64,000 nt of DNA from Phycisphaerae bacterium (GTDB taxonomy: Bacteria > Planctomycetota > Phycisphaerae > UBA1845 > PWPN01). A program made the translations under genes and the position numbers. The notes beneath the pieces were generated by a model. The model was not told the origin of the DNA. It saw only the letters and a program-made list of their open reading frames with translations, and searched no databases. The stretch is taken from assembly GCA_018003015.1 (NCBI GenBank), contig JAGNEZ010000036.1, positions 1 through 64,000 on the forward strand. Direction: 5' to 3'. Below are positions 25,919 through 35,463 of this stretch, piece after piece (positions within the stretch are counted from its first letter, which is position 1; each line of letters starts with the position of its first letter).

Positions 25919-26138
25919 CGATTCCTTGGCCGCTTGACGCTGTCCGTGTCCACCGACCGGATCTCGGCATCCTGCCCGATCCTCAGTCGAATCGCCACCG
26001 CCCACCCGTTCCCCCGGAACAGCCCAGGCGGCGCCGGGGCAGGGATGCGGTACAATGCCGAGACGCAGAACGGGCAGCGTGGCCGGGCGAGGACCGCCGG
26101 GACAGAGGTCTTCATTTCGCAGATTGAGGAGAAACGCC

Positions 26139-27467
26139 ATGGGCAGACTGACCAAGCGGCTTGACTCGAGCCGGCGAGACTTTCTGAAAGTCGCTCTCGC
26201 CGGTGGCGCCGCTATATCGGCACCTTGGATCGTGTCTTCACGCGCGTGGGGCCGAGGGGGCGCGGCCGCGGCCGGCGAGCGGCTGACCTTGGGTGTGATC
26301 GGCTTCGGCCCACGCTGCAAGTACGACCTGGCCGCCATGCTCAAGTTGCCCGACCTGCAATGTGTCGCCCTGGCCGAGGTGCAGGCCAGCCGGCGTGATG
26401 CCGGCAAGGCCACGGTCGACGGACACTACGGCAATACGGACTGCAAGGTCTACCGCGACTTCCGCGAAATGCTCGAGCGCAAGGACATCGACGCCGTGCT
26501 CGTCGCGACCGGAGACCGCTGGCACGCACTCGCCTCAATCCTGGCCGCCGAGGCCGGTAAGGATGTGTACAGCGAGAAACCGTGCGGATTGACTATCGCT
26601 TGGTGCCAGAAACTCGCCGAGACGGTGAAAGCCACCCAGCGCGTGTTCCAGGCTGGAACGCAGCGCCGCAGCGTGCCGAACTTCCAGCAGGCGGTGCAAC
26701 TGGCCCACAGCGGCAAGCTCGGCAAGATCCATACGGTCTACGCCTCGGTCTACACCCCTCAGATCGAGACCACCTGGCTGCCCGGCGAGCCGACCCCGCC
26801 GCCCGAAGTGTGCGACTGGAACCTGTGGCTCGGGCCAGCCCCCTGGCGGCCGTACAACAGCAAGTACGTGGGCGGCGGCTGGCGCGGCTACTGGGACTTC
26901 GATTCGGGGGCCCGCCTGCTGGACTGGGGAGCCCATACCGTCGATCTCTGCCAGTGGGCCAACCACGCCGACGATACCATGCCCGTCGAGTACGAGCCAT
27001 CGAGCACGAATATCACCTGCCGGTACGCCAACGGGGTCAAGCTGGTGCTGGATTTCCTGAAAACGCCGTTCGGCGAGCGACCGGGGTGGATCACGCGGCT
27101 GGGAACCTGCCCGGTGCGGTTCGTGGGCGACGAAGGCTGGGTAGAGACCGGCGACAACGGTGAGACCGAGGTGCACCCGGTGTCGCTCAAGAGCGAGCTG
27201 AAAGCGACCGCAGCCGGGACCCAGGGCCTCGACGTCTCGGCCCATGCGCGGAACTTCCTCGACTGTATCAAGTCACGCGGCGAAACGGCGGCCAACCCGC
27301 GGGTGATGCGTCATTCGCACATCGCCTGCCACGCCGCCGCCCTCGCGTGGATGTTGAATCGGAAACTGTCGCTCGATCCGGCGAAGGAAGCGTTCGCGGA
27401 CGATGACGAGGCGAACGGCTTGCGATCGCGGCCTGCACGCGACTATGCGGACTACTCCAAGTCATAG
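26139..27467 (+). CDS. Tat-exported Gfo/Idh/MocA-family oxidoreductase
   Basis: This is a 442-residue NAD(P)-dependent oxidoreductase of the Gfo/Idh/MocA family. It begins with a clear twin-arginine signal (SSRRDFLKVALAGGAA), so it is exported folded with its nucleotide bound. The Rossmann part has GVIGFGPRC, VYRDFREML and the conserved EKPCGLT (catalytic-site Lys in EKP). The C-terminal domain has GGGWRGYWDFDSGARLLDWG and WGAHTVDLCQW. The ATG at 26139 has GAGGAG 7 nt upstream. The GH127 gene begins 11 nt after its stop. Exported members of this family often act on free or polymer-bound sugars; the substrate here is unknown. Confidence 0.88.
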   Translation: MGRLTKRLDSSRRDFLKVALAGGAAISAPWIVSSRAWGRGGAAAAGERLTLGVIGFGPRCKYDLAAMLKLPDLQCVALAEVQASRRDAGKATVDGHYGNTDCKVYRDFREMLERKDIDAVLVATGDRWHALASILAAEAGKDVYSEKPCGLTIAWCQKLAETVKATQRVFQAGTQRRSVPNFQQAVQLAHSGKLGKIHTVYASVYTPQIETTWLPGEPTPPPEVCDWNLWLGPAPWRPYNSKYVGGGWRGYWDFDSGARLLDWGAHTVDLCQWANHADDTMPVEYEPSSTNITCRYANGVKLVLDFLKTPFGERPGWITRLGTCPVRFVGDEGWVETGDNGETEVHPVSLKSELKATAAGTQGLDVSAHARNFLDCIKSRGETAANPRVMRHSHIACHAAALAWMLNRKLSLDPAKEAFADDDEANGLRSRPARDYADYSKS

Positions 27468-30214: not shown

Positions 30215-30239
30215 GACAACCCGGACCCCTCAGGTTGTC
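30215..30239. terminator. Hairpin between convergent GH127 and AGE genes
   Basis: GACAACC pairs perfectly with GGTTGTC around an 11-nt loop, overlapping the stop codon of the epimerase gene on the minus strand and about 90 bases after the GH127 stop. There is no T-run. It may act as a bidirectional 3'-end hairpin. Confidence 0.3.
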
Positions 30240-31396
30240 AGGCGGCCAAGGACTTCCGTACAGCAGATCAACGCTCGAGGCAGATGGAACGGATCCTTGA
30301 CCGGCAACGCCACAACCGTGGTGAACGGCCGGCCCTGGCGATCGAGCTTCTGCGTCCACTCGCCGTGCTCCTTCACCGGGTAGTGACCATAACTGTACTC
30401 GCGGATCCGCTCGTGCCACTGTAGACACCAGTCCTCCCGGCAGCACTCGTAGGCCAGGAGCGTCGCATACAGGGCCTCGACATGCGGCCACCAGAGCTTG
30501 GAGTCATGGAACGGCCAGGCGGGCTCCTTGCCGCCCTCGGCATCCACCGCCAAAAACAAGCCCCCGTACGCAGTATCCCAGCCGATCTCCAGGTGCCGCC
30601 GGATGGCTCGAACGGCGCAATCGATGGTCGCCAGATCGCCGGCCGAGCGCGCCAGGTGGATCTGGAACCACATGGATTCAATGGCATGGCCGGGCAGCAC
30701 CAAGGTCCGGTCCGGCGGTTCAACTTCCCGGCCGTCACCGGTCAGCCACTCGACGACCAGGCCGCGGTCCGGCCGCAGGAACGCTTCCATCACCCGCCGA
30801 TGATGGCTCCGGGCGGCGCCGCGCACAGTCGAATCGCCCGTGGCTTCCGCCAATTCATGATACGCCAGCGAGAACAGCATGCTGATGCCATGATTCAAAC
30901 GGTCGGAGGGGATCGGGTAAGGCCAGGCGGGCACTGGCTCGTCACCATGCAGGGCGTGCTCAGTCCCCTGAAACGTGTCCATGGCCAGATCGAGCACCGC
31001 TCGCTCCCCTGTCGCCCGCCACAGCTCGACGAGGGCGTAGATGGCGAACCCGTCGGCGTAAATGCTCTCGTAGCCACGCGTGATCCGCCCCTCGCCGTCA
31101 ACCAGCAACGGCCAGTGACCGTTGGCCAGCGGGCCATGAGCGACCTGGAACCGGTAGATGCCCCGGGCAATGTTCAGCCATTCCGGCCGATGCGCCACAC
31201 CGTTGTACAACCTGCTGAACACCCACACGGCCCGCCACTGCGACCAGCTCCACCGGTCTCGACTGACCACCCGTCCGTCATCCGTGATGCACGAGTTGAT
31301 CGCTCCGTCGGCGTCGACGGCGTGCCTCGTCCAGAAGGGGATGACGTCGTCCAGCAACGTTTCGCGGTAAAGCTGGAGCAGCCCTGGGAGATCCAT
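30230..31396 (-). CDS. AGE-family (N-acylglucosamine 2-epimerase-like) protein
   Basis: This 388-residue protein belongs to the AGE superfamily of (alpha/alpha)6-barrel epimerases/isomerases, which interconvert N-acetylglucosamine/N-acetylmannosamine or the C2 epimers of sugars. Typical blocks are DDVIPFWTRHAVD, RWSWSQWRAVWVFSRLYN, LPGHAIESMWFQIH (with a conserved His) and DSKLWWPHVEALYATL. An HGEWTQKLDRQG block near the C-terminus carries another conserved His. No signal peptide is seen from the chosen ATG at 31396 (GAGG four bases upstream), so it is cytoplasmic. It lies last in the operon with the AmmeMemoRadiSam genes, 127 nt downstream. Confidence 0.82.
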   Translation of the reverse strand: MDLPGLLQLYRETLLDDVIPFWTRHAVDADGAINSCITDDGRVVSRDRWSWSQWRAVWVFSRLYNGVAHRPEWLNIARGIYRFQVAHGPLANGHWPLLVDGEGRITRGYESIYADGFAIYALVELWRATGERAVLDLAMDTFQGTEHALHGDEPVPAWPYPIPSDRLNHGISMLFSLAYHELAEATGDSTVRGAARSHHRRVMEAFLRPDRGLVVEWLTGDGREVEPPDRTLVLPGHAIESMWFQIHLARSAGDLATIDCAVRAIRRHLEIGWDTAYGGLFLAVDAEGGKEPAWPFHDSKLWWPHVEALYATLLAYECCREDWCLQWHERIREYSYGHYPVKEHGEWTQKLDRQGRPFTTVVALPVKDPFHLPRALICCTEVLGRLTT

Positions 31397-31523
31397 GCCC
31401 TCAGCTTGTACCAGGCAGCGATCGGCGTCAATCCGGACAAGTCTGGCATGAGGGCAGGACTGCGCCAGGCGAGCGGCTTCGGCCCGTTCGCCGCCCAGGG
31501 TGCATGGGCCGGGTTCACAGTCG

Positions 31524-32768
31524 CTATGCCGGGCGAGTCGTCGCGGCGCCTTCGGCGCGTGTCTCGCGAGGTTTGAACGCCAAGGCCTGGGCCTGGGACC
31601 AGACGCCGGGAATGGCCGTTCCGCACTTAGGACATTTGCCTTCTTTGACTGCGTTGGCGGCGATGCGATAGCCAACCCGGCGGATCAGCTCTGCCTTGCA
31701 CTGGTGGCAGTAGGTGTTCTCGCCGGGGTGTGACGGCAAATTGCCGACGTAGACGTAGTGCAGGCCCGTCTCGAGGGCGGTTTTGCGGCAGCGGTCCAAC
31801 GTGGCGGCGGGCGTGGGCGGCAGATTCTTGACCCGATAGGTGGGGTTGAATCGCGTAAAATGCACCGGCACGTCCGGCCCGAGGTTCTTGAGTATCCAAT
31901 CACTCATCTGCCTGATCTCGTCCGCCGAGTCGTTCTTTGTCGGGATGATCAGAACCACCACTTCAAACCAGATGCCGATATGCTTGAGCGTCTTGAACGT
32001 GTTCAGCACCGGCTCCAGCGAGGCGGAGCACATCTCCGCGTAGAATTCCTGGCTGAAGGCCTTGAAGTCGATCTTGACCGCAGTCAGATGGCCACACAGT
32101 TGACGAAGCGGTTTCTCCTGCATGTAACCATTGGAGATGATCACGCTGCCGATCCCCGCCCGGCGGGCCAGGGCGGCCGTGTCGTGCACGTACTCGTAGG
32201 AAATGGTCGGCTCGGAGTAGGTGTACGCGATCGTCGGGCATCCTCGGGCCTTGACCATCTCGACGAGCCGCTCCGGCTTGACCTCGACGCTCTCGATCTG
32301 CTCCGGACGAAACTGGCTGATCTCCCAGTTCTGGCAGAATCTGCACTCGAGGTTGCACCCGGCGGTGGCAATGGAAAACGCCGACGAGCCGGGCAGATAA
32401 TGGAACAGCGGCTTCTTTTCGATCGGGTCGAGGTTGGCCGAGCAGAGTGCCCCGTACACCAGTGTCTGGTACTGCCCACCCTGGTTCTCACGCACGCCAC
32501 AATAGCCGCGCTCAAGATCGACAACCTTGCACTCCCGCGGGCAGAGCAGGCACTTCACCTCGCTCTCCTTGTGGGTCGGCTCCCAGAACATCGCCTTGTG
32601 CCGGATCACGCCCTTGAGCTTCGGCCCGGACGCCTCGCCCGTGCCGGCCGTATCCTCGGCAAGGGCCGGTGCCGATCGCCACATCGCCGCTGCGGCGGCG
32701 CATGCAGCACACGAGCGAAGCAAGGTCCGCCGAGTAGGCACAGTGAGGATGTGGCGATCCGGGTTCAT
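31524..32768 (-). CDS. amrS: AmmeMemoRadiSam radical SAM enzyme, Tat-signal form
   Basis: This 414-residue radical SAM protein belongs to the AmmeMemoRadiSam system, whose reaction is unknown. The cluster motif CNLECRFC (CX3CX2C, about 136-144) should bind the SAM-ligating [4Fe-4S] cluster. An N-terminal CLLCPRECKVVDLERGYCGV and a C-terminal CxxC...CxxC pair (CHQC, CPKC) are typical of the family. Notably, the N-terminus is a twin-arginine signal (PTRRTLLRSCAAC...). The ATG at 32768 has AAGGG five bases upstream. It follows a DUF362 gene and a Memo-AMMECR1 fusion, so all system parts lie together. Confidence 0.9.
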   Translation of the reverse strand: MNPDRHILTVPTRRTLLRSCAACAAAAAMWRSAPALAEDTAGTGEASGPKLKGVIRHKAMFWEPTHKESEVKCLLCPRECKVVDLERGYCGVRENQGGQYQTLVYGALCSANLDPIEKKPLFHYLPGSSAFSIATAGCNLECRFCQNWEISQFRPEQIESVEVKPERLVEMVKARGCPTIAYTYSEPTISYEYVHDTAALARRAGIGSVIISNGYMQEKPLRQLCGHLTAVKIDFKAFSQEFYAEMCSASLEPVLNTFKTLKHIGIWFEVVVLIIPTKNDSADEIRQMSDWILKNLGPDVPVHFTRFNPTYRVKNLPPTPAATLDRCRKTALETGLHYVYVGNLPSHPGENTYCHQCKAELIRRVGYRIAANAVKEGKCPKCGTAIPGVWSQAQALAFKPRETRAEGAATTRPA

Positions 32769-32822
32769 GCTGTCCCTTCGATTGCGGCGAATCGGTCACC
32801 TCCGGAGAGCTCATCCCGTCAA

Positions 32823-32876
32823 GTGTGGGACCCGCATCTTGCCGATCAAGTGACAGGCTGGAGGCCTGTCCCACAC
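32823..32876. repeat. Compound palindromic (REP-like) element
   Basis: The outer arms GTGTGGGAC (32823-32831) and GTCCCACAC (32868-32876) are perfect complements. Inside, GACAGGC (32852-32858) and GCCTGTC (32864-32870) form a second perfect hairpin around TGGAG. The element lies in the 131-bp gap between the DUF362 gene and amrS. It looks like a dispersed repetitive palindrome; it may also attenuate or protect the operon transcript. Confidence 0.65.
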
Positions 32877-32899
32877 CTACAACCCAGATCCGCCCAGCT

Positions 32900-33898
32900 T
32901 CAAATCTCGACGCGTTCGATCGCGGCCAGATCAGCCACACCCAATCCGCGAGCACCCGCCGTCTTGATGTGCACCGGTGGGCGCTTCTCCTCGGCCAGGG
33001 TCTTCATGCCTGTGGCCTTGCGCTGCTGCTCGAGCAGGTCAGCGCCCACCGCGTCCACCGCCACGAAATCGGTGCCCACGATCATGCCGCCCAGCGACCA
33101 GGCGAAGCCGGGGTTCCGCACCGGACCGGCATTGTACTGGCCCCGGGTGCCGTCGCAGACCGTCAGCCGCCATCTGGGGCGGATGAACCGGTGCTCAACC
33201 ACGTCGGCAACATAAGGGTCGCAGTGGTGCTCATGGTACTTGTTGGGATTGTGGATGGCCCCGAAGAAGTTCTTCATCCCCAGCGTCACGCCGGCAAACG
33301 GGTGGTCCTTCAGAACCGGCACACAGACCAGCGCATCCACCTGCTCGGCCACGATCTTCGAGAAGCACGAGCCGATCCGGCCGTTGGTCTCGACCTCCTT
33401 CTGGTAGCCGCTGCCGTAGCTCTGGGCGTCCGTGCCGTAGCACTGCACGCCGGTCTTCGAACGGTTGAGCTGGTAGCCGGCCGCGGTGAGCTCGGAGTCA
33501 AACCGGTCCCAGATGATGATGTTCTCGGCAGGCACGTCGGCGCTTCGCAGGCCGGCCACGACCGCATCGACCACCACCGGCTGAGTCGCCAGCCCCAGCG
33601 TATTCACCTTGATGCCCACACGATCGCCGCTCTTGAAGAGCCTCCGCCAGGCGGCTTTGGCGTCGGCCTCCCCGGTCAGCTTTTGCATCGAGGCATCCAG
33701 CATCTTGCGAAGCAGCTCGCGATGCCCCTCCATTTTGCCCCCGGTAACCGCCTCGTCGCGGGCGATGACCACGCGCGGCCGCGGCTTGCCGGCCGGCGCA
33801 GAGTCGCTGCCCAGGGCCAGTGAGCCCGATACGGCCAGGCCACACGCCACACCGCCAATCCGGCTGAGCATCTGTCTCCGATCGAGAGATTCTGGCAT
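32900..33898 (-). CDS. DUF362 protein with Tat signal
   Basis: This 332-residue DUF362 protein begins with a twin-arginine signal (LDRRQMLSRIGG) and should be exported folded. DUF362 proteins are often ferredoxin-linked, but no CxxCxxC cluster motif is present in this one. The conserved core includes VGIKVNTLG (about 95), DALVCVPVLKDH and GVTLGMKNFFGAIHNP. The ATG at 33898 has GGAG seven bases upstream and lies 26 nt after the Memo-AMMECR1 gene. Its function is unknown. Its position between the two AmmeMemoRadiSam genes suggests it is part of the same process. Confidence 0.82.
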   Translation of the reverse strand: MPESLDRRQMLSRIGGVACGLAVSGSLALGSDSAPAGKPRPRVVIARDEAVTGGKMEGHRELLRKMLDASMQKLTGEADAKAAWRRLFKSGDRVGIKVNTLGLATQPVVVDAVVAGLRSADVPAENIIIWDRFDSELTAAGYQLNRSKTGVQCYGTDAQSYGSGYQKEVETNGRIGSCFSKIVAEQVDALVCVPVLKDHPFAGVTLGMKNFFGAIHNPNKYHEHHCDPYVADVVEHRFIRPRWRLTVCDGTRGQYNAGPVRNPGFAWSLGGMIVGTDFVAVDAVGADLLEQQRKATGMKTLAEEKRPPVHIKTAGARGLGVADLAAIERVEI

Positions 33899-33924
33899 GA
33901 ACGTACTCCGGGTGATGAACAGAC

Positions 33925-35463
33925 TCAGTCTCTTGAGTCGGCCGGTCTCGTCGTCGGCTCGGGCTCGCCGAACACCTCCGCTTCAAAGGAGTAGAGCTTG
34001 GCCTCCGGCCGCCTCCAGGCGTCGGCCGGCAGACCTGCCTTGTTGACGCACAGCTGGGTCAGAAACTCATCGCGCGTCCAGCCGCGCTCGTAGGCCACCT
34101 GGGGCAGAAACACCGCCCGCCGCGAACCCGAGTCAATCAATACCCCGTGCCGCCCAACAATGATCTCCTCGACTTTCCCCACCAGCTTCATCGGCGTCAG
34201 GTAACTGATCTCGATGTGCAGGTCGCCCAGTTCCTTGATGGTCACCGGATTGTCGGCGAAGCGATAGTCCTCCGTCGCGGCGGAGATCGCGTTGTGGATC
34301 ACGGATTCGACCAACGGCCCGCGAGCTTCCATGTTCCCAATACAGCCCCGGAGCTGGCCGCGGTTCTGGAGCGTGACAAAGCAGGCCCCTTGCTCACGAA
34401 GCGCCGGCGGCAGCGTCGCTAGGTCGGGACGCGGTGGATCCTGCTTGTTGAGCACGGCCGCTAAGGTCGCGCGGGCCAGCTTCAGGGCCGCGGCCCGCGC
34501 ATCGGCCGGCAGCGTCCCTGGCCGGGCAGTGAATACGAACGACTGGTAGGTCACGCTGTTCTCGTAATCGTTGGTCATGCGGCCCGAGGTGTCAAACGCC
34601 GTGCGAATGCCCAGGGCCCCTCCCTGCATGGACAGCACACGCATCAACAGCAGGATCGGCTCCCGCCCGCAAATCGTATCCTCGGTGTCGACCAGGTGCT
34701 TCGTGAACCCGTCAAAATCGCAGCGCTCGATCGCCGTAGAAGCCTTGTCGGCCAGCTCCTTCAACTTGGCGGGAATGTCCGTGCGGAACGGCTCGTAGCC
34801 GTAGTTCGGCCCGAAGTGCGTACAGTCGCTGCTGACCACGAGCAGCGTGTCGCTGTCCAGCAGCGGGAGAATCGCCGCCGCGGCCGCCGCGTGCTCGCCG
34901 ACCGACATCTTGCCAACCAAAAGCGGCACGAGCTTGAAGTCCTTCAGCGTCCGCTGCAGAAATGGCACCTGCAGCTCCAGGGAATGCTCGTCGGCGTCGA
35001 CACCCGGGTGCGAGGCGAACAGCGACTTTCCCTTCAGCCTCTTGACCGCTTCAGTGTCAATCGGCACATCGCCCAACGGCGTACGGTACGCGGTCCACTT
35101 GTCGGGTACGTCGATCCCCCGATAGCTGTGCGCATACCGGTGGCTGAACGCCAGAGCAATGACCCGTCTGTAACTCTGCCCGCGAAGACAGCGGTATCCG
35201 GCGGCCGCCACCGGGGCACTGAACCGGTATCCGGCGTGCGGGGCAATGACCGCCCGGGGCTTGCCCGCCAGCCTCGCAACCGGTGCCCGCTCCAGCAGCT
35301 GGTCGATCAGGGCGGCTAGTTCAGCGGAGTCCCCAGGATACCACGAGCCGGAGAACCGAGCCGGTCGGGGGTCGAAGCCGCCGCCAGGGGCGGACTGTCC
35401 GTGCGCACTTGTCAGAATGGCCATGATGAACATACCCCCTTGTAGGAGACAGGAGGCCTTCAT
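33925..35463 (-). CDS. amrBA: AmmeMemoRadiSam Memo-AMMECR1 fusion (AmrB-AmrA), exported
   Basis: This single 512-residue chain joins a Memo (AmrB) domain (about 30-315) to an AMMECR1 (AmrA) domain (about 320-505). Memo is seen from [49 protein letters not shown] and [15 protein letters not shown], which keep the dioxygenase-like His/Asp/Cys site. AMMECR1 is seen from [20 protein letters not shown] and [13 protein letters not shown] short Sec-type signal precedes Memo ([14 protein letters not shown]). The ATG at 35463 has AGAGGTGA upstream and a candidate extended -10 (TGG-TAAACT, 35495-35500). It is the first gene of the operon. Confidence 0.9.

Follow-up and report, generated by a model that had tools for sequence, protein, structure and literature searches.

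The 64,000-nucleotide stretch analysed here (contig JAGNEZ010000036.1 of the Phycisphaerae bacterium assembly GCA_018003015.1; hereafter the window) carries on its minus strand four genes (30230-35463) that encode, in order of transcription, a fusion of Memo and AMMECR1, a protein of the DUF362 family, the radical S-adenosylmethionine (SAM) enzyme AmrS and an AGE-type epimerase. Memo, AMMECR1 and AmrS are the three parts of the AmmeMemoRadiSam system, relatives of which occur in all domains of life, including humans (MEMO1 and AMMECR1), and for which we know of no established function or reaction. Profile matches placed all four genes where a sequence-only reading had put them, each on the minus strand. 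The fusion (33925-35463, minus strand; 512 residues) matches TIGR04336 with 181.3 bits (cutoff 26) and TIGR04335 with 170.7 bits (cutoff 99), while the product of amrS (31524-32768, minus strand; 414 residues) matches TIGR04337 with 379.2 bits (cutoff 220) as well as PF04055; all three AmmeMemoRadiSam models are matched above their curated cutoffs, two by the fusion and one by AmrS. Only the DUF362 gene (32900-33898, minus strand; 332 residues; PF04015, 81.5 bits) lies between them, an order kept in many relatives. The cluster shares with the known system all three families, each above cutoff, together with their conserved catalytic residues, but differs from it in the predicted export signal borne by each part, in the fusion of Memo to AMMECR1 and in the inclusion of a putatively exported, LarA-fold DUF362 protein. 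It is a real, conserved and extracytoplasmic-looking variant of a known, functionally obscure system.

The N-terminus of AmrS reads MNPDRHILTVPTRRTLLRSCAACAAAAAMWRSAPALA up to a cleavage site judged by eye and followed by ED, and that of DUF362 reads MPESLDRRQMLSRIGGVACGLAVSGSLALG up to a site judged in the same way and followed by SD. The predicted twin-arginine translocation (Tat) signal of AmrS comprises residues 1-37 (32658-32768, minus strand), running from TRRTLLR to SAPALA, and is kept across the window's own clade of AmrS sequences (clade A) and absent from cytoplasmic AmrS. Its counterpart in DUF362 comprises residues 1-30 (33809-33898, minus strand), from DRRQML to LALG. By sequence, conservation and a home-made rule, both show a twin-arginine motif, a hydrophobic core and a cleavage site. 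The fusion begins with a putative signal of the general secretory (Sec) type (residues 1-22; 35398-35463, minus strand; AHG before QS). Among 29 aligned DUF362 homologues R7 and R8 are nearly invariant, and the end of the signal varies among relatives between a signal-peptidase-I site and a lipobox-like Cys. Compared with the same-genus locus L096, the signal regions of the fusion and of DUF362 differ mostly at third codon positions and show no insertions or deletions; that of AmrS varies faster, yet retains the twin Arg, the hydrophobic core and an AxA-like site. The N-terminal region of AmrS ahead of the twin Arg differs in the same-genus genome, where translation probably starts at a TTG two codons ahead of that Arg pair. 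The hydrophobic region (h-region) of the AmrS signal contains a Cys in 57/60 clade-A signals, as CxxC in 18, compared with 14/32 and 0 in the signals of DUF362; a lipobox at this Cys of AmrS was rejected by eye, as it lies too near the twin Arg.

The conservation of these signals was followed through 62 loci drawn from public genomes, together with many found in 150 related genomes, with related sequences counted as independent, short tree searches and several family counts made partly by eye. Under the Tat rule, which requires a twin Arg followed by a run of 12 or more uncharged residues whose mean hydropathy is at least 1.2, 55 of the 62 clade-A AmrS were positive, compared with none of 39 cytoplasmic AmrS (23 ordinary and 16 of a 'type B') and 8 of 644 further genes taken from those loci. 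Of the seven clade-A AmrS that it missed, two are truncated or sit at contig ends, two carry KR, and in three the RR precedes a weaker stretch. In a tree of the AmrS core, a single branch sets nearly all Tat sequences apart from the others, and in a 99-row AmrS tree, from which twelve long, cut or ambiguous rows were excluded, the Tat label changes once, with 98% support in the Shimodaira-Hasegawa-like approximate likelihood ratio test (SH-aLRT), against a mean of 27 for shuffled labels. By record titles, the clade spans at least five phyla, namely Planctomycetota, Thermodesulfobacteriota/'Deltaproteobacteria', Myxococcota, Candidatus Eisenbacteria and Acidobacteriota. Between signal and core, no ATG is found in 26/58 clade-A amrS genes and no ATG, GTG or TTG in 9/58, and a downstream start is therefore not generally available to them. 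Moreover, the AmrS cores are merely about 40-65% identical, while the twin Arg and h-region are conserved, and 41 of the 55 signals have an AxA site. The predicted export signals are thus neither chance nor wrong starts. The sequence-only reading had proposed a signal on each of the three components and had allowed that close relatives might begin downstream of them; the former is borne out by this conservation, and the latter is contradicted by the clade-A genes.

The radical SAM motif CxxxCxxC of AmrS (C138, C142 and C145; 32334-32357, minus strand) is invariant in every AmrS group compared. In 57 clade-A sequences this motif, an N-terminal four-Cys motif and C-terminal CxxC pairs (98-100%) are conserved as in cytoplasmic AmrS, and so are the invariant E186-P187, N213-G214, E269 and H303, some of which we equate with SAM-binding positions by likeness to pyruvate formate-lyase activase. 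Eight conserved Cys occur in addition to the radical SAM triad. On this comparison, the predicted catalytic residues of the exported-type system are intact. The nearest solved relatives by sequence are the pyruvate formate-lyase activating enzyme and other activases of glycyl radical enzymes (3c8f), which have the CxxxCxxC core in common with AmrS but lack its predicted export, its extra N-terminal four-Cys motif and its C-terminal CxxC...CxxC. No glycyl radical enzyme was noticed in the AmrS neighbourhoods inspected, where no search was aimed at one. A second group of Tat-AmrS, 'type C', occurs in the window's order and class directly after the gene of an all-helical, apparently exported protein (L104:6141-8783, L125:5426-8167, L130:5308-8263 and others). 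The all-helical model of this partner has a predicted local distance difference test (pLDDT) score of 80, and neither Pfam nor NCBIfam has a match to the protein, nor did the fold search give one below E 0.001.

The export signals of the three parts are not distributed independently. A DUF362 gene directly adjoins AmrS in 33 Tat rows and in L003 (about half of 68 in all), the latter having been missed by the first Tat rule owing to the Trp in its TRRDWLR, and in none of the other 39 signal-less rows; the DUF362 beside a Tat-AmrS has a predicted Tat signal of its own. The pairing of Tat-AmrS with DUF362, for which the sequence-only reading had suggested a neighbourhood comparison, is thereby upheld. 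The coupling to Memo was assessed in genomes outside the window's order, where Memo is often away from the AmrS cluster. About 25 of 27 such Tat-AmrS genomes encode a Memo that bears a signal of the Sec or lipoprotein type, mostly unlinked and usually on another contig, a count made partly by eye, in which G165, cut at a contig end, was judged by its lipid-anchor-like linker. Seven genomes selected for having signal-less AmrS only show no signal-bearing Memo at the rule's threshold (G181 being borderline at 1.60), whereas an eighth, G180, has one and was found to contain a Tat-AmrS as well. The predicted signals of AmrS, DUF362 and Memo are in this way shown to be coupled even where the genes are unlinked. 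Over all loci, 38/42 fused Memo proteins bear a signal and 32/41 single ones have none. The nine single Memo proteins with a signal comprise seven from Tat-AmrS genomes, one fusion truncated where its contig stops and one probable false positive.

Within the fusion, the Memo domain occupies residues 33-311 (34531-35367, minus strand) and the AMMECR1 domain residues 326-498 (33970-34488, minus strand). H76, H108 and C265 of the former and the LRGCIG of the latter are invariant in 16 fusions, and the three Memo residues lie in motifs that we equate with those of the metal ligands H49, H81 and C244 of MEMO1 (PMC11081632). The Memo domain matches chains of human MEMO1, an iron/copper protein (7kq8, 7l5c), with 193 bits, and the H/H/C metal site appears conserved between them, whereas the protein of the window is fused to AMMECR1 and predicted to be exported.

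The AlphaFold2 model of DUF362, built from 29 sequences (pLDDT 89), points to the lactate racemase LarA, a nickel-pincer nucleotide enzyme with a DUF2088 domain. LarA chains head the Foldseek list, with E 4.4e-06 to 9q3k, and structural comparison with VIA gave Z 17.2 to malate racemase (7s91; root-mean-square deviation 3.0 over 206 residues), the next best Z after the LarA chains (Z 15-17) being only 5.0. A solved homologue of DUF362 was not found by sequence. Aligned with the LarA of related genomes, DUF362 gave a probability of 74% and E 2.8e-05 in hhalign, which pairs the invariant H199 and K209 (33272-33304, minus strand) with residues that match, by their equal 10-residue spacing, His174 and Lys184 of LarA, where Lys184 and, below, His200 follow what we take to be the LarA numbering. 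His174 is catalytic and Lys184 tethers the nickel-pincer cofactor, both roles being those of the literature (PMC12611868), and DUF362 and DUF2088 share the Pfam clan CL0471 (PMC11770544). The two proteins have in common the fold of the N-terminal domain and the positions of His174 and Lys184. DUF362, by contrast, places the catalytic His108 of LarA in a gap and is variable at the position of the nickel ligand His200, which an invariant Cys adjoins. At 332 residues it has no LarA C-terminal domain, the alignment ending near residues 261-286 of the roughly 390-450 of most LarA chains; the Pfam family Lar_N (PF09861) gave no match, DUF362 being the sole family at E 0.01, and export is predicted. 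Membership of the LarA family was rejected on PF09861, His108 and the C-terminal domain. LarC (PF01969), considered as an indicator of the nickel-pincer cofactor, is present in 119/150 related genomes and hence does not discriminate. DUF362 is thus LarA-like in fold and in part of its site, and a LarA-like cofactor chemistry is possible.

These observations are best explained by an extracytoplasmic variant of the AmmeMemoRadiSam system, to which we assign a probability of about 0.7. The source assembly, a metagenome-derived genome of 6.86 Mb in 144 contigs whose nearest named public record is the Planctomycetota bin L033 (AmrS 94% identical), encodes tatC (PF00902). It also holds a second, signal-less AmrS-like protein (L095, contig C3; 'type B', 274 bits to TIGR04337), as do many relatives, and a second Memo, because of which inner and outer versions of the system appear to coexist. 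AmrS and DUF362 would fold in the cytoplasm, where AmrS would gain its iron-sulfur clusters, and each would be exported by Tat under the direction of its own signal, while Memo-AMMECR1 would leave independently through Sec, either in soluble form or as a lipoprotein, and acquire iron or copper outside. Because two of the parts would use Tat and the third Sec, the compartment that their signals have in common, and in which we infer that they meet, is that outside the inner membrane. The apparently extracytoplasmic radical SAM system of the sequence-only reading is supported to this extent by the signals and their conservation.

Several points weigh against this interpretation. The Tat assignments rest on a home-made rule, nearly all of the sequences come from metagenome bins, and two of the 27 Tat-AmrS genomes (G163 and G167) show no signal-bearing Memo. 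Neither SAM nor an electron donor was found outside the cytoplasm, and radical SAM enzymes are, as far as we know, regarded as cytoplasmic since that is where SAM and low-potential electrons are. No published exported or periplasmic radical SAM enzyme was found in the literature searched, and no paper linking DUF362 with radical SAM; subscription journals and preprints lay largely outside this search, which makes it weak evidence of novelty. That AmrS is a true radical SAM enzyme whose SAM-dependent radical chemistry takes place beyond the cytoplasmic membrane, with co-exported metal and LarA-fold proteins and SAM supplied outside, possibly by the membrane protein described next, has a little less than an even chance. 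A fused membrane protein of major facilitator superfamily (MFS) and SpeE-like (spermidine-synthase-like) parts adjoins 15 of 50 testable clade-A AmrS and 0 of 38 cytoplasmic ones, and is usually convergent with the exported-type gene (L124:2634-5144, L043:1805-4144, L133:3550-6006 and others). Across 12 sequences, the distribution of Lys and Arg in the loops of this protein suggests an outward-facing SAM-fold domain, and many planctomycete copies have a degraded catalytic motif; as a candidate partner for SAM supply outside the protein is suggestive only. The leading working mechanism, itself less likely than not, is that AmrS would carry or receive SAM outside and use radical chemistry to modify a partner or a substrate at the surface, with Memo, AMMECR1 and DUF362 completing the conversion. 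Memo might contribute a metal, AMMECR1 its invariant Cys and DUF362 a LarA-like handling of hydride or protons, and SAM might be exported bound to the enzyme, spent in chemistry finished before export, or supplied outside.

The alternative that survives best, itself unlikely, is that AmrS would act in the cytoplasm on, for example, DUF362 or itself and be exported afterwards with its product, in the manner of cofactor-loaded Tat substrates. It would account for the paradox of SAM, none being needed outside, and it draws on DUF362, the partner most closely linked to AmrS and bound for the same route; Tat exports folded proteins (PMC10924467). The coupling of exported Memo to exported AmrS even when unlinked argues against it, as does the route of Memo, which would travel unfolded by Sec and so not meet AmrS inside. 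Less probable again is the proposal, raised in the sequence-only reading, that the signals are retained as membrane anchors for domains acting in the cytoplasm. The short h-regions of some signals and the frequent h-region Cys of AmrS, which could mean a function beyond targeting, would fit such an arrangement, but an anchor would require neither the conserved twin Arg nor the AxA or similar site that follows the h-region; it loses ground because that twin Arg is kept, because among relatives DUF362 and Memo have a lipobox in some cases and a signal-peptidase-I site in others, and because Memo goes by Sec. At marginally longer odds still, AmrS may have taken on a new role outside, that of an iron-sulfur electron carrier or sensor free of SAM chemistry, to which its eight additional Cys and the want of a known SAM source outside would lend themselves, although the expected SAM-binding positions are equally invariant in the exported clade and in cytoplasmic AmrS. 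Start-codon artefacts, with the proteins beginning at the core as cytoplasmic AmrS do, are very improbable in view of the clade-A genes that lack a usable start there and of signals conserved across divergent cores.

Should the extracytoplasmic variant be real, radical chemistry thought to be purely intracellular may also run outside the inner membrane, and a clade that is ancient, spans several phyla and keeps its Tat signals would challenge the cytoplasm-only view of radical SAM enzymes. An exported version with its partners would leave the periplasm or the cell surface as the place to look for a substrate, and it names DUF362 as a partner with a putative LarA-like cofactor site.

The AGE-type epimerase (30230-31396, minus strand; NF052547, 257 bits, below the cutoff of 600; PF07221 above cutoff) follows amrS as the sequence-only reading had described, and the gene order is real, but it adjoins the module only in the window and in the same-genus loci L033 and L096. 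It was rejected as a part of the module on that account, and its adjacency is a local accident. A link of the system to neighbouring glycan or cofactor genes, also suggested earlier, finds no support, because conservation with the module extends neither to the epimerase nor to the other neighbours. Between DUF362 and amrS lies a short palindrome (32852-32874), present as a single exact copy in the genome, within a segment from DUF362 to the twin Arg of AmrS (32732-32900) that gave no alignment to the same-genus genome. Further away, a Gfo/Idh/MocA oxidoreductase (26055-27467, plus strand) has a Tat-like signal that scores 22.0 bits against PF10518, just below the cutoff of 22.7, and is apparently another cofactor-dependent enzyme sent out by Tat.

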